A DNA stretch of 64,000 bases from contig JAUQWO010000083.1 of assembly GCA_030835135.1 (NCBI GenBank), forward strand, positions 1 through 64,000, in the 5' to 3' direction. Under the pieces are notes generated by a model. It made no database searches and had not been told where the DNA came from. It saw only the letters and a list, made by a program, of their open reading frames with translations. A program made the translations under genes and the position numbers. This DNA comes from Bacteroidota bacterium. GTDB taxonomy: Bacteria > Bacteroidota > Ignavibacteria > UBA10030 > UBA6906. Positions 9,280 through 16,431 of this stretch are shown piece by piece. Position 1 is the stretch's first letter. Each line of letters starts with the position of its first letter.

Positions 9280-9582
9280 ATGCCGGTCGTACGGTTCATG
9301 CCTTCCGGTAAAGAGCGGACGATCCGCGCCGGGGCAACGATCCTGGCCGCTGCCAATCAGGCCGAAATGCCGATAGGGCAGTCGTGCAGTGGCGACGGGA
9401 TCTGCGGCTGGTGCCGCGTGACCCTCCTGGAAGGAGCGGGGAACATGCTGCCACCGGGCCCGCTGGAGAAGAAGCTGATGCGGGAGAAGGAGTTCACGCC
9501 GAAGGAACGGGCGGCGTGCCTCGCAAAAGTGAACGGCGACGTCACGATCACGACAACATACTGGGGTCATGAACATGTATAA
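9280..9582 (+). CDS. [2Fe-2S] ferredoxin, plant/adrenodoxin type
   Basis: 100-residue soluble electron carrier. Seen: a beta-grasp N-terminus (VRFMPSGKERTIRAGATIL) and cluster ligands CSGDGICGWC near residue 36, with a fourth Cys in AACLA near 78, giving Cys-x5-Cys-x2-Cys...Cys. Ligand spacing fits ferredoxins that serve oxygenases, hydrogenases or NAD(P)H reductases. It begins right at the stop of the LiaF-like gene and overlaps the next, different type of ferredoxin by 14 bases. The partner enzyme is unknown; the hydrogenase operon lies 1.3 kb downstream. Confidence 0.85.
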   Translation: MPVVRFMPSGKERTIRAGATILAAANQAEMPIGQSCSGDGICGWCRVTLLEGAGNMLPPGPLEKKLMREKEFTPKERAACLAKVNGDVTITTTYWGHEHV

Positions 9583-9928
9583 ACGTCACGTGTTCGTCTG
9601 TACCAATGAGCGGGCAAAGGACCATCCGCGCGGATGCTGCCACGCCAAAGGATCGATCGAGGTCCGGGATGCGCTGAAGGTGGCCATCGGGGCCCGCGGC
9701 CTGAACAAGGTGGTCCGCGGGAATGCCGCAGGATGCCTCGATGCATGTGAGCATGGCGTTACGATGGTGGTCTATCCCGAAGGCATCTGGTACGGACATG
9801 TGACGGTCGCGGATATCCCGGAGATCGTCGAGCGAACGATCGTCAACGGAGAGGTCATCGAGCGCCTCCTCATCAAGGACGACCGGTACCGGCCGACGTC
9901 GCTCTCATTCCCGAAACTCACGATCTGA
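9569..9928 (+). CDS. Thioredoxin-like [2Fe-2S] ferredoxin
   Basis: 119-residue protein of the thioredoxin-fold ferredoxin family, related to NuoE and hydrogenase-associated ferredoxins. Seen: FVCTNERAKDHPRGCC near residue 9 and GCLDACEHG near 53, which supply the four Cys ligands (the second pair as Cys-x3-Cys). An alternative ATG two codons in (9575) would work equally well. It overlaps the upstream ferredoxin by 14 bases, so translation is probably coupled. Two unlike [2Fe-2S] carriers encoded back to back suggest sequential or alternative electron transfer, which is inference. Confidence 0.85.
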   Translation: MNMYKRHVFVCTNERAKDHPRGCCHAKGSIEVRDALKVAIGARGLNKVVRGNAAGCLDACEHGVTMVVYPEGIWYGHVTVADIPEIVERTIVNGEVIERLLIKDDRYRPTSLSFPKLTI

Positions 9929-10878: not shown

Positions 10879-12000
10879 ATGTATGTCGTCGAGCTCAACG
10901 ATCTTCAGGGTCTCTTCACCGCACTCTCACAGCAGGGCTATACGATCATCGGGCCACAGGTCCGGAACGGCGCCCTCACGTTCGACCGGATGACGTCGGT
11001 CGACGAACTCCCACGCGGATGGACCGATCACCAGGATGGCGGGATGTACAGTATAGCGCGGTCGGGCGATGATGCGCTCTTCTCGTACACCGTTGGCCCG
11101 CATTCCTGGAAAAGGTTTCTCTTTCCGGCCCGTCTCCGGCTCTTCGCGGCGCGGCGGGAAGGGAAAGGCTTCGCGGTCGACCCGCCGGCGGCCACGCCCG
11201 CGCCACCCTATGCCTTCATCGGGGTCCGTGCCTGCGAGCTCGCAGCCCTGGACCTTCAGGACAGGATATTCATGTCCGGACAGTATGCCGATGCGCACTA
11301 TACCGCGATACGTTCCTCCGCGTTCATCGTTGCCGTCAATTGCGGTCGCGGGGGGGGAACGTGCTTCTGCTCGTCCATGGGTACGGGACCGAAGGCGCGG
11401 GATGGTTTCGATCTGGCGCTGACCGAGATCATGGACGGAGAACGCCACGCCTTTCTGATCGAGACGGGGAGCAGCCGGGGCAAGGACGCGCGTGCCGCGA
11501 TGCAGGCACGCGAGGCAGATCCGTCAGAGATCGCCCGTGCCGCCGCGGTGTCGCGGGCAGCCGAATCAACGATGGGCAGGGCGCTCGACACCAGCGGATT
11601 GGCGGGGATCCTGGCGGAGAACTTCGAGCATCAGCGCTGGGATGACATCGCCAAACGCTGCCTTGCCTGTGCCAACTGCACGATGGTCTGTCCGACCTGC
11701 TTCTGCTCCACCGTCGAGGACGTGACGGACCTGACGGGCGATCATGCCGAGCGATGGCGCAGGTGGGATTCCTGTTTCACGTCCGACTTCACGCGGGTCG
11801 CCGGCGGCAACATCCGCATGAGCACGCGTACGCGGTACAGACAGTGGATGATGCACAAGTTGTCGCACTGGGTCGAGCAATTCGGGAGCACCGGATGCGT
11901 CGGTTGCGGCCGGTGCATCACCTGGTGTCCCGTCGGTATCGATATCACCGCGGAAGCCGCAGCCATCCGTGGTGCCAACGTTGCCACCACCAACGGATAG
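10879..12000 (+). CDS. hydB: Hydrogenase beta subunit-like 4Fe-4S dicluster protein
   Basis: 373-residue iron-sulfur protein corresponding to the beta subunit of soluble NAD(P)-linked sulfhydrogenases. Seen: an N-terminal domain typical of these subunits ([26 protein letters not shown] near 113), then two [4Fe-4S] motifs, [12 protein letters not shown] near residue 260 and [12 protein letters not shown] near 340. It relays electrons between the gamma flavoprotein and the delta/alpha hydrogenase core. It is the first gene of an operon whose members overlap or nearly touch through 16431. ATG with GAGG upstream. Symbol follows Pyrococcus naming and denotes the subunit type. Confidence 0.85.
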
Positions 12001-12010
12001 GGATCGAGCC

Positions 12011-12490
12011 ATGGAGAAAGAAGATCTGTCAGAGATCATGCGCCAGCATCCGTTCCTGGCCGGACTGTCCTTCGAACACATGCAGACGCTTGTGGGGTGC
12101 GCCACCAATGTGCGATTTGCGGATGACGAGACCATCATCCATGAAGGACAGGTCGCGAACAAATTCTACCTGATACGGACGGGGAGGGTGGCCCTGCAGA
12201 TGGACGTCCCCGGGAAGGAGCCATTGCGTATCCAGACGGTCGGACCCGGCGAGATCCTGGGCTGGTCGTGGCTCATCTCTCCGTTCCGATGGCACTTCAG
12301 CGGGATCGTGGTGCTGGAGACCCGTGCGATCGCCCTGGATGGTGAGTGTCTCCGGGCGAAGTGCGAGAAGGATCCGTCGTTCGGATACGAAATGCTGAAG
12401 CGCTTGTCGCAGGTGATGGAACGCCGGCTCGACGCGACGCGTCTCCAGCTCATCGATCTGTACGACACTGCCGCGAGGGCCGGACGATGA
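12011..12490 (+). CDS. Cyclic nucleotide-binding-domain protein without DNA-binding domain, in the hydrogenase operon
   Basis: 159-residue protein made of a single CRP/CNB fold. Seen: [15 protein letters not shown] near residue 13, the beta-roll [25 protein letters not shown] and a [11 protein letters not shown] hinge, then one C-terminal helix ending at [21 protein letters not shown]. Crp/Fnr proteins are about 210-230 residues and carry a C-terminal winged helix; here it is absent. The Arg-Ser pair that binds the cyclic phosphate in CRP is not clearly present (RWHFSG in that loop), so the ligand is open. The ATG is 10 bases after hydB and its stop overlaps hydG by ATGA. Such a stand-alone domain more likely acts on the hydrogenase protein than on DNA; that is inference. 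Confidence 0.8.
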
Positions 12491-13347
12491 CACGTCGAGC
12501 ACAATCGGCACTGGCCGCGGCCGTCGATCCGATGACGCCGACGCCCGTGATGGTCCGGAAAGCGTTGTGGGAGAACGACGACACGTTCACGCTCACGCTG
12601 GATTGCGCGCCGTTGGGGGAGCGATACCGGTTCCTCCCGGGGCAGTTCAACATGGTCTATGTGTATGGCGTCGGGGAGGCGGCGGTCTCGATCAGTTCGG
12701 ACCCCGCGCGTCCGGGAACCCTTGACCATACGATCCACCGTGTCGGTCTGGTGACGACGGCACTCGCGCAGAAGAAACGTGGCGACCTCATCGGGATCCG
12801 CGGCCCGTTCGGGTCGAGCTGGCCCATTGAAGTTGCCCGGGGCAAGGACGTCTGCATCGCTTCCGGGGGCATCGGACTCGCGCCGCTCCGGCCGGTGATC
12901 TACGCCATGCTGAAGGACCGGGATGCGTATGGGCGCGTGATCGTGTTGTATGGCGGCCGGAGCCCGCTGGACCTTCTGTACCGTGTCGAGCTCGAAAAAT
13001 GGGCCAACGACTTCGGTGTGGAGGTGCTCGTGACCGTGGACCGGGGTGATTCGTCCTGGAAGGGACACATCGGGGTCGTGACGTCGCTCTTCCAGTACAT
13101 CAAACTGGATGCGCGTGAGACCATTGCCTATGTGTGCGGTCCGGAGATCATGATGAAGTATACGATCGATGAACTGGATCGCCGGGGGGTTCCGCCGGCG
13201 CAGATGTATCTCTCGATGGAGCGGAACATGAAGTGCGCCGTCGGGTTCTGCGGGCACTGCCAGTATGGGCCCACCTTCATCTGTAAAGAGGGACCGGTGT
13301 ATCCCGTCACACGCGTGCGGCCACTCCTCGACAGAAAGGAGCTCTGA
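12487..13347 (+). CDS. hydG: Hydrogenase gamma subunit, FAD/NAD(P)-binding oxidoreductase
   Basis: 286-residue flavoprotein that exchanges electrons with NAD(P)H. Seen: a ferredoxin-reductase beta-barrel with [10 protein letters not shown] near residue 49 and [18 protein letters not shown] for FAD binding, a NAD(P)-binding domain starting at [17 protein letters not shown] near 123, and a C-terminal [2Fe-2S] motif CAVGFCGHC followed by a fourth Cys in FICKEG near 260, as in dihydroorotate dehydrogenase electron-transfer subunits. The ATG shares bases with the stop of the CNB gene, which selects this start over an in-frame upstream one. Cofactor preference between NAD and NADP cannot be judged by eye. 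Confidence 0.88.
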
Positions 13348-13348
13348 C

Positions 13349-14125
13349 ATGCCCGCGAAACGGCCGAAGGTAGCGGTGTTCAAATTTGCTTCGTGCGATG
13401 GGTGCCAGCTGTCGCTACTCGATGCGGAAGACCAACTGCTTGCGGTTGCCGGGGCAGTGGAGATCGCCAATTTTCCGGAAGCATCGCGGAGGATCGTGAA
13501 GGGCCCCTATGACATCGGGCTGGTTGAAGGCAGCATCACCACGCCGCACGATGTGGAGCGGATCAGGGAGATCCGCAAGGAGTGCCGCTTCCTCCTCACC
13601 ATCGGGGCGTGCGCGACCGCCGGGGGGATCCAGGCACTGCGCAACTGGAAGGACGTGAAGGAGTACACCCGTCTTGTGTATGCCTCGCCGGAGTACATCT
13701 CGACGCTCGATCGATCGATGCCGGTGGGGTCGTATGTGCATGTGGACTTCGAGTTGCGTGGGTGTCCGATCAACAAAGCGCAGCTTCTCGAGGTGGTCAA
13801 TGCAGCGCTCAACAAGCGGAAACCTACGATCCCGACCCACAGTGTGTGCATGGAGTGCAAGCTGCGCGGGACGGTATGCGTTCTGGTGGCCAAACAGATC
13901 CCGTGTCTCGGTCCGGTGACCCAGGCCGGCTGCGGCGCACTCTGTCCGTCGTACGACCGCGGCTGCTACGGATGCTTCGGCCCGATGGAGAATCCGAATC
14001 CACCGGCCCTCAGCAAGCGGCTCGTTGCGTTGGGGTGCGACCGGCGGGACGTGGTCCTGATGTACCGCGGGTTCAACGCCTATGCGGAGGCGTTCCGGAA
14101 GGAGAGCGACGCTCATGAAAAATAG
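13349..14125 (+). CDS. hydD: NiFe hydrogenase small (delta) subunit
   Basis: 258-residue small subunit of the NADH-quinone oxidoreductase 20-kDa/hydrogenase small-subunit family. Seen: proximal [4Fe-4S] ligands in [10 protein letters not shown] near residue 12, IGACATAGG near 84 and [11 protein letters not shown] near 135, then a Cys-rich C-terminal half ([36 protein letters not shown]) that can hold additional clusters. There is no twin-arginine signal, so the enzyme is cytoplasmic. ATG preceded by AAGGAG at seven bases. The gene overlaps the alpha subunit by 11 bases. Confidence 0.88.
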
Positions 14126-15398
14126 GGTCATCAAGGTTGATACCCTCTGCCGGGTAGAGGGAGAAGGCGGCATCTTCATCAAGATCGCCGACGGCCGGAT
14201 CACGGATACGAAGGTGCGCATCTATGAACCACCCCGGTTCTTCGAGGCATTCCTCCGGGGCCGTAGCTTCGCGGAAGCGCCGGATATCACCGCGCGGATC
14301 TGCGGCATCTGTCCGGTTGCGTACCAGATGAGTGCCGTGCACGCGATGGAAGATGCCTTCGGCGTGACCGTGGATGGCCAGCTGCGGGAACTCCGCCGGC
14401 TCCTGTACTGCGGCGAATGGATCGAGAGCCATGTCCTGCATGTCTTCATGCTGCATGCGCCGGATTTCCTGGGGTACGACGATGCGTTGCAGCTGGCGAA
14501 GGACAAACCCGACCTCGTGCGGGATGCGCTCCGCATGAAGAAGATCGGCAACGATATCGTGACCATCGTGGGCGGGCGGGAGATCCATCCGATCAACGTC
14601 CGTGTCGGCGGGTTCTACCGGGTCCCGGAGCGCCGGGAATTCGAGCGGCTTGCGGAGGACCTGGCATGGGGGAGGGAGAAGGCGCTGGAAGCGGTGCGGC
14701 TCGTTGCCGGGTTGGAGTTTCCGCAGTTCGAGATGGAGTATGAGTATGTCTCTCTGGACCATCCCACGGAATACCCGATGCTGGGGAACCAGATCAGCAC
14801 GCGTCACGGTGTGACGATGGCCGTGAGGGAGTATGAGTTCCACTTCGAAGAGAGGCATGTGCCCCACTCGAACGCCCTGCATTCCGTCCTGAAGGGGCAG
14901 GGGAACTATCACGTTGGTCCGCTGGCACGGTTCAATCTGAACTTCGACCGTCTGCTGCCGGTTGCGCGCAAGGCGGCGGAGGATGCCGGCCTCGTCCCCC
15001 CGGTGATGAACCCGTTCAAGAGCATCATCGTCCGGGCCGTGGAAGCGGTCCATGCGTACGACCTGGCCCTGCGGATCATCGCCGACTATCAGCCACCCGC
15101 GGAGCCGTCCGTGCCGGTCCGCCCGGTACCGGGTATCGGGTTCGGTGCGAGCGAAGCGCCGCGTGGGATCCTGTATCACCGCTACCGGCTGGATGACGAT
15201 GGGGCGATACTGGATGCGAAGATCGTTCCACCGACGGCACAGAACCTGGGCACCATGGAGGCAGACCTGAAACGGTTCGTCACCGCCAACATCGATATGG
15301 AGAGGGAAGAGTTGACGCTGAGGGCGGAACAGGTCGTCCGGAACTACGATCCATGCATCTCATGTGCGACACACGCGGTGACGATCGTCAGGGAATGA
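14115..15398 (+). CDS. hydA: NiFe hydrogenase large (alpha) subunit, group 3b-type
   Basis: 427-residue catalytic subunit that interconverts H2 with protons and electrons. Seen: the N-terminal NiFe motif [16 protein letters not shown] near residue 63 (Arg-x-Cys-Gly-x-Cys-x3-His type... Cys-x2-Cys pair) and the C-terminal motif DPCISCATH near 412, which together supply the four Ni-binding Cys residues. A seven-residue tail follows the last His, the peptide normally removed by the maturation protease encoded next. The subunit set beta-gamma-delta-alpha indicates a soluble NAD(P)-linked group 3 enzyme; group 3b is my best assignment. Start chosen by AAGGAG nine bases upstream; it overlaps hydD. 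Confidence 0.9.
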
Positions 15399-15886
15399 AC
15401 ACCGAAGTCCTCGTGATAGGGCTCGGGAACGAATTCCGATCGGACGATGGCCTCGGGCTCTGTGCTGCCAGGGAGGTACAGCGGCGCGGGCCCCCCGGGG
15501 TGAGGGTCATGGAGTGTTCGGGTGAGGGGACAGCGCTCCTGGAGGCCTGGAAGGGAGCGGAGTGTGTGCTCCTGATCGACGCGATATGTCCGGGCCATTC
15601 TGCCGGGAGCCTGCACCGGATCGATTGCCGTCGCGATTCCACGCCACACTCGCTTTTTCGGTCCTCAAGTCATACCTTTGGAGTGTCGGAAGCGATCGCA
15701 CTCGCGACAAGCCTCGGGTCGCTCCCCCGTGTCCTGCTCCTGTATGGCATCGAGGGGTGCAACTTCACGCCGGGCCAGGGCCTGAGTGACGCTGTGGTGC
15801 GCAGTATCCCGGACCTCATCGCATGGATCGGGGCGGACATCGCTGACCTGACCCATACGAATGAACCAGCCAGAGGGACTCCGTGA
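15395..15886 (+). CDS. Hydrogenase maturation protease
   Basis: 163-residue endopeptidase of the HyaD/HycI family, which trims the C-terminal tail of the large subunit after nickel insertion. Seen: the opening strand [17 protein letters not shown] with the first metal-binding acidic residue, a second acid in LLIDAICPG near residue 58, and [14 protein letters not shown] near 90 with the His that recognises nickel. The start overlaps hydA's stop as ATGA, and its stop overlaps the next gene as GTGA. Other maturation genes (hypA-F) are not in the window and must lie elsewhere. Confidence 0.88.
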
Positions 15887-16431
15887 CACGACACCAGGCG
15901 CTCGACCTGCTCCATGAGTACACGCTCACCGAACCTCTCCGCAAACATGCGCTGGCCGTCGAAGCCGCGATGAGCGCGTATGCCCGCAAGTTCGGGGAGG
16001 ATGAAGGACTCTGGAGCGTCGTGGGTCTGTTGCACGATTTCGATTATGAACGGTTCCCCTCGTATCCTGACCATCCGACGAAGGGGTCGGAGATCCTGAA
16101 GGACCGTGGGGTCGGTGAGGACGTGCGGCGCGCGATCATGTCGCATGTACCGGACACGGGGATCCCCCGCGATACGCTCATGGCGAAAGCGCTCTTCGCC
16201 TGCGACGAACTTTGCGGCTTCATCATGGCCGCGGCGGTGATCCGTCCGAACAAGATCGCGGACCTCGAGGTCTCCTCGGTGAAGAAGAAGTTGAAGGACA
16301 AGGCGTTCGCGCGGGCCGTGAGCCGGGAGGATATCACCGCCGGCGCTGCGGACCTGGGCGTCCCATTGGACGAGCACATCAGTTACATCATTGCGGCGAT
16401 GAGGAACCGCTCCGCGGAGCTCGGCCTCTAG
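15883..16431 (+). CDS. HD-domain phosphohydrolase
   Basis: 182-residue HD-superfamily protein. Seen: RKHALAVEAAM near residue 20, the HD pair in GLLHDFDYERFP near 48, and a later His in HVPDTG near 88, the usual metal-binding set for a compact HDIG-type phosphohydrolase. It starts with GTG overlapping the protease stop, with GAGGG upstream, so it is the last co-translated gene of the hydrogenase operon. The substrate is unknown. The presence of a CNB-domain protein in the same operon raises the idea of nucleotide turnover, but nothing in the sequence shows cyclic nucleotides as its substrate. Confidence 0.75.
   Translation: MTRHQALDLLHEYTLTEPLRKHALAVEAAMSAYARKFGEDEGLWSVVGLLHDFDYERFPSYPDHPTKGSEILKDRGVGEDVRRAIMSHVPDTGIPRDTLMAKALFACDELCGFIMAAAVIRPNKIADLEVSSVKKKLKDKAFARAVSREDITAGAADLGVPLDEHISYIIAAMRNRSAELGL

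Follow-up and report, generated by a model that had tools for sequence, protein, structure and literature searches.

What might a protein with the fold of a cyclic-nucleotide sensor do when its gene sits among the structural genes of a [NiFe] hydrogenase? The question is raised by the gene at 12011-12490 (+) of the window, i.e., the whole 64,000-nucleotide stretch of Bacteroidota DNA under analysis, where an intact open reading frame of 159 codons runs from an ATG at 12011 to a TGA at 12488-12490. In a Pfam search, the 159-aa product matched a single family, namely cNMP_binding (PF00027; residues 34-121, 47.4 bits, E 2e-12, for a curated cut-off of 27.5 bits), and no HTH family was found. The AlphaFold2 model (pLDDT 90.3) consists of a cyclic-nucleotide-binding (CNB) barrel and then a helix of 36 residues, 122-157 (12374-12481, +), which lies where CRP has its dimerisation helix and beyond which there is no domain. 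The best structural match of this model is 3MDP, a stand-alone CNB protein, and the sensor domains of Crp and GlxR are matched as well; the family score and the structural matches together place the protein among CNB domains. With the Crp/Fnr transcription factors it shares the CNB fold and a C-terminal helix, but the helix ends the chain, and both the HTH domain and the canonical cAMP cassette are missing. Family alignment included, the protein is a stand-alone CNB fold without HTH, as originally described.

The gene is embedded in a complete group 3b [NiFe]-hydrogenase set ordered beta-CNB-gamma-delta-alpha-protease and annotated with Pfam and NCBIfam. The 4Fe-4S beta subunit (ShyB/HydB-like; 10879-12000, +) ends 10 bases before the CNB gene starts, and the FAD/NAD(P)-binding gamma subunit (ShyC/HydG-like; 12487-13347, +) opens with an ATG at 12487-12489, the CNB stop and the gamma start sharing the four bases ATGA at 12487-12490; the original placement of the gene, 10 bases after one subunit and overlapping the next, is thus exact. 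Further downstream come the delta, or small, subunit (ShyD-like; 13349-14125, +), the alpha, or [NiFe] large, subunit (ShyA-like; about 14115-15398, +, with an inferred start codon), in which both the L1 (RICGIC) and L2 (DPCISCATH) motifs are present, and a maturation protease of HycI/HupD type (about 15395-15886, +, the start codon again inferred). Shy/Hyd-type subunits are the best NCBIfam matches of the structural genes, with scores that lie below the equivalog cut-offs of these archaeal models yet are the best in class, and the best PDB match of alpha as well as of gamma is P. furiosus sulfhydrogenase I (SHI; 9nez). At the borders of the operon, a gene for an HDIG-domain protein (15883-16431, +) overlaps the 3' end of the protease gene, a pairing kept in the near relatives L009, L010 and L012; being confined to near relatives, it was rejected as a general partner. 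Upstream, two small 2Fe-2S ferredoxin-like genes (9280-9928, +; Fer2 and Clostridium-type 2Fe-2S ferredoxin) lie close to the operon in L010-L012 as well.

Distribution of the CNB gene in group 3b operons

The presence of the CNB gene is not a matter of chance, because in four near relatives (CNB identity 81-85%) it is conserved about as well as gamma and better than beta or alpha, and because the arrangement is seen again in about 90 loci overall. Searching with the CNB protein yielded 80 loci, most of which have beta-CNB-gamma-delta-alpha; since this search used the motif GEILGWSW, the conservation of the motif in the resulting loci is partly built in, and the alpha subunit was therefore used as an independent query. 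The lineages sharing the arrangement include Ignavibacteriae/Bacteroidetes, Acidobacteriota, Zixibacteria, Nitrospirota, Nitrospinaceae, Planctomycetota, Alphaproteobacteria, Desulfosarcina and one Thermoplasmata MAG, among others.

Within the window's phylum, the alpha search matched 80 of 296 genomes, 21 of which, the window's included, carry a close alpha (53% identity or more), and a CNB profile search of the same 296 genomes returned exactly these 21 (hypergeometric P ~1e-32, shared descent being ignored in this figure). CNB lies between beta and gamma in all 19 close-alpha loci fetched besides the window and, judged by coordinates, at the same distance in the remaining close-alpha genome (G003); it was found in none of the seven distant-alpha loci inspected in this phylum. 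In the phylum of Azospirillum, it occurs in 3 of 349 genomes, always in a close-alpha 3b operon, and two of the five genomes with an alpha at 50% identity or more are without it. In the phylum of Mycobacterium, 27 genomes have a close alpha, and CNB is adjacent in 13, unlinked in one and not found above threshold in 13. Similar gene orders in relatives, which the original prediction had thought possible and wished to see counted, are therefore real, and range in frequency from every close-alpha genome of the window's phylum to about half of those in the phylum of Mycobacterium.

Coupling of the CNB gene to its neighbours is tight in most of the 68-69 operons considered, and its evolutionary rate is about that of beta and gamma. 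No fusion of CNB to beta or gamma, which would be evidence of direct contact, was present among the collected loci. Mirror-tree analysis by distance correlation gave CNB weak partial r values, about 0.2 for each of beta, gamma and alpha and near zero for delta; as the test is weak and blind to the known beta-gamma pair, it was not used to place a docking site.

On a FastTree phylogeny of 142 alpha sequences, four changes explain the presence or absence of CNB: three small CNB-less groups branch off before a crown clade that comprises about 100 sequences, nearly all CNB-positive, the sample of this crown having been gathered in part through CNB itself. With moderate supports at the key nodes (58-86), the tree looks compatible with a gene gained once, mainly, in the crown clade and later lost in a mycobacterial subclade. 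The characterised 3b enzymes have the same beta, gamma, delta and alpha subunits as the window but no CNB subunit: the genes of M. smegmatis Hyd3 (MSMEG_3931-3927) are ordered beta-gamma-delta-alpha-protease (PMC2799521), and both this enzyme and P. furiosus SHI are described as four-subunit in a paper on R. equi (PMC13332983). Since these two enzymes work without it, CNB is dispensable for 3b catalysis. The studied 3b enzymes being CNB-less, the gene has thus so far been missed by biochemistry.

Pocket residues and known CNB proteins

In a gapless alignment to PKG, the Gly-Glu of the phosphate-binding cassette (residues 80-96; 12248-12298, +) corresponds to Gly84-Trp85 and the phosphate-binding Arg to Trp94, the spacing of nine being kept. 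Among 29 CNBs gathered mainly through alpha, three of them (L186-L188) from genomes first reached via CNB, 25 have Trp and none has Glu at position 85, and Trp occupies position 87 in 28 and position 94 in 22; in the motif-biased CNB set, all 73 have Trp at position 85. In the family alignment, few residues of the protein are better conserved than those of the pocket region. By comparison, Glu stands at position 85 in 4 of the 6 other CNBs of the window's genome. As the canonical Glu is never present in the family members examined and Trp usually takes the place of the Arg, cAMP or cGMP is an unlikely ligand, in line with the early remark that a clear cAMP Arg-Ser pair is lacking. Judged from these residues, the pocket would bind either another ligand or none.

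That a CNB protein can control an NAD(P)-linked [NiFe] hydrogenase is already known in kind, through HoxI, which PMC3702609 and PMC12319191 describe as a CNB-domain subunit of the NAD-linked hydrogenase of C. necator; the idea that such control would be new did not hold. According to PMC3702609, a HoxI dimer on the diaphorase module of this soluble hydrogenase (SH) is the site of NADPH activation, which is seen only with the six-subunit, HoxI-containing form. The enzyme stays active when hoxI is removed (PMC12281615). HoxI is missing from the enzymes of Hydrogenophaga and Hydrogenophilus; like the window's CNB, it does not occur in all related enzymes (PMC3702609). HoxI (group 3d, HoxFUYHI2) and the window protein are both small HTH-less CNB proteins (167 and 159 aa, respectively) encoded with a soluble NAD(P)-linked [NiFe] hydrogenase. 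HoxI nevertheless differs from the window protein in its canonical-looking cassette (GELGFIDQTPHSLS), which keeps GEL and has His at the Arg position, in a gene lying just downstream of the maturation protease (pHG1 annotation) instead of between beta and gamma, and in its partner, HoxFU instead of group 3b beta/gamma. By sequence, identity with HoxI was rejected and the functional analogy retained: the two proteins are 20% identical (E 1e-4 when compared one to one), HoxI gets 36 bits with the family profile, a score that unrelated CNBs from the same genome as the window also reach and that lies well under the 90-250 or so of members, and on the CNB tree HoxI falls outside the family. Among the PDB matches, no near-identical chain was found that would represent a solved HoxI.

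CNB genes in 3b clusters have also been mentioned in print in passing, for Rhodococcus equi 103S (PMC13332983) and, under the label HoxI, for the methanotroph 'M. acidophilus' 29 (PMC12319191); in the accessible portions of these papers, the genes are named without function test or family analysis, and the HoxI label is given by analogy. The closest solved structure, Gmet_1532 of Geobacter metallireducens (3MDP; Z 19.7, 1.6 A over 132 residues), is likewise a stand-alone CNB whose cassette aligns without gaps and lacks the canonical Glu, but its identity is 24% and it scores 77 bits against the family profile. What is new here is the scale of the CNB-3b association and the non-canonical pocket; a CNB subunit in itself is not a new idea.

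Candidate roles of the CNB protein

Considering its position and the HoxI analogy, the CNB protein is taken, with modest confidence, for an accessory HoxI-like regulatory subunit of bacterial group 3b NAD(P)-linked [NiFe] hydrogenases, belonging to a different CNB subfamily. As its fold suggests, it would homodimerise via the long C-terminal helix; gene order and the HoxI site suggest that the dimer would dock on the diaphorase/electron-entry part of the enzyme, i.e., beta-gamma, and there it may alter activity, reactivation or stability on a small-molecule or redox cue other than cAMP or cGMP. The original proposal of an action on the enzyme itself, not on DNA, is supported by a gene locked into the operon in many phyla, one-to-one co-occurrence in the window's phylum, tight coupling in most operons and a member of this subfamily at the head of a HoxEFU-type NAD(P)-linked [NiFe] operon. 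More tentatively, the subfamily bearing the Trp cassette could sense a different ligand, e.g., a pyridine nucleotide or a redox-linked metabolite, and so control 3b hydrogenases allosterically in many phyla after a recruitment independent of that of HoxI. Counting against a regulatory subunit are the two characterised enzymes that do without CNB, the close-alpha actinobacterial operons, about half of which are without it, the place of HoxI outside this subfamily, and the cassette Trp residues, which could mean that no ligand is bound; since members also occur in genomes without a close 3b alpha, some family CNBs act elsewhere, which weighs against this reading too.

As the pocket is without the canonical cNMP residues, a ligand-free structural role is a serious alternative and the main rival to regulation, although on balance it appears rather unlikely: the CNB fold would be a docking or dimerisation module, its pocket filled by the protein's own Trp, that keeps the complex assembled or links two copies of it and senses nothing. 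A cassette in which Glu never occurs, Arg is mostly replaced by Trp and Trp87 is nearly invariant would fit such a module, as would the long C-terminal helix of the model. KCNH-channel CNB homology domains keep the fold and do not bind nucleotides, and one of them (6syg) is among the structural matches of the model. An empty scaffold, however, has no need of a pocket region among its most conserved residues, and HoxI, the closest analogue in function, mediates activation by NADPH (PMC3702609). The opposite reading of the pocket, a classical second-messenger sensor that binds cAMP or cGMP and ties hydrogenase activity to the cyclic-nucleotide level, could draw on the fold and on the three class III nucleotide cyclase domains of the window's genome, but is highly improbable given the replaced cassette residues, the Glu being kept in HoxI and in most other CNBs of the same genome.

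Two further readings detach the protein from the working enzyme. It might help to load or fold beta and gamma and then leave, which would suit a gene that is in the operon yet absent from the characterised 3b enzymes; this is improbable, as the gene stands among the structural genes, away from the protease, and in the mirror-tree comparison, itself a weak test, its distances do not follow those of the protease (partial correlation of about -0.1) whereas those of alpha, the known partner, do (0.36). Or it might merely ride on the hydrogenase transcript and regulate another partner, for which speak the family CNBs in genomes without a 3b hydrogenase, two mycobacteria in which the gene is unlinked to the 3b operon, and Streptomyces orphans beside CBS-domain and universal-stress or nar genes. 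Against this quite improbable alternative stand the perfect co-occurrence in the window's phylum and the fixed slot between two structural genes across phyla, and the orphans themselves nest with actinobacterial hydrogenase-linked CNBs on the CNB tree.

In uncultured bacteria of soil and sediment, group 3b hydrogenases occur widely, and because both studied enzymes come from lineages without the CNB gene, much of the bacterial 3b group may have a fifth subunit that was overlooked. Should the regulatory-subunit reading hold, CNB would explain how the bidirectional 3b enzymes are switched and, together with HoxI, would mean that NAD(P)-linked [NiFe] hydrogenases recruited CNB domains on more than one occasion, perhaps with a ligand that is not a cyclic nucleotide.

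Family members outside the group 3b operons

Scattered genomic context of the homologues, named beforehand as a possible refutation, was not encountered, the family being operon-linked across phyla, although orphan paralogues do exist. Of 15 genomes with a family CNB that were checked, five are without any alpha match, and in the phylum of Mycobacterium a family CNB occurs in 10 genomes that have no close alpha; since they occur in such genomes, some members act elsewhere. In Omnitrophota (L078:5986-11295, same genome as L188), a family CNB heads an operon of HoxE, NuoF-like, HoxU and [NiFe] small and large subunits, which is not of group 3b; this HoxEFU-type operon is a bridging case. The orphan CNBs of Streptomyces (L201:3980-5177 and L204:3977-5115) are followed by a CBS-domain gene and lie among universal-stress or narGHI genes. 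In two mycobacteria (L067:5992-6453 and L069:1079-1516), a CNB near the window's type is unlinked to the organism's own CNB-less 3b operon; that these are relocated orthologues is doubtful, their identity to the window protein being 49-50% versus about 32-37% for the operon CNBs of Rhodococcus.

The alpha searches also brought up more distant arrangements. Alphas of family f24 (e.g., L140 and L143; 33-38% identity) have their stop, aligned near query positions 432-433, immediately behind the C-terminal CxxCxxH region, and no maturation protease was found near these loci; for such alphas, C-terminal processing may be unnecessary. In a distant 3b lineage (alpha 41% identity), a divergent CNB of about 93 bits (L218:2475-3272, -) lies directly downstream of alpha, an adjacency that suggests a separate association. 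Finally, one relative of the window carries a second copy of the CNB gene (G255:C4:25277-25726) with an internal TGA, possibly a decaying duplicate.
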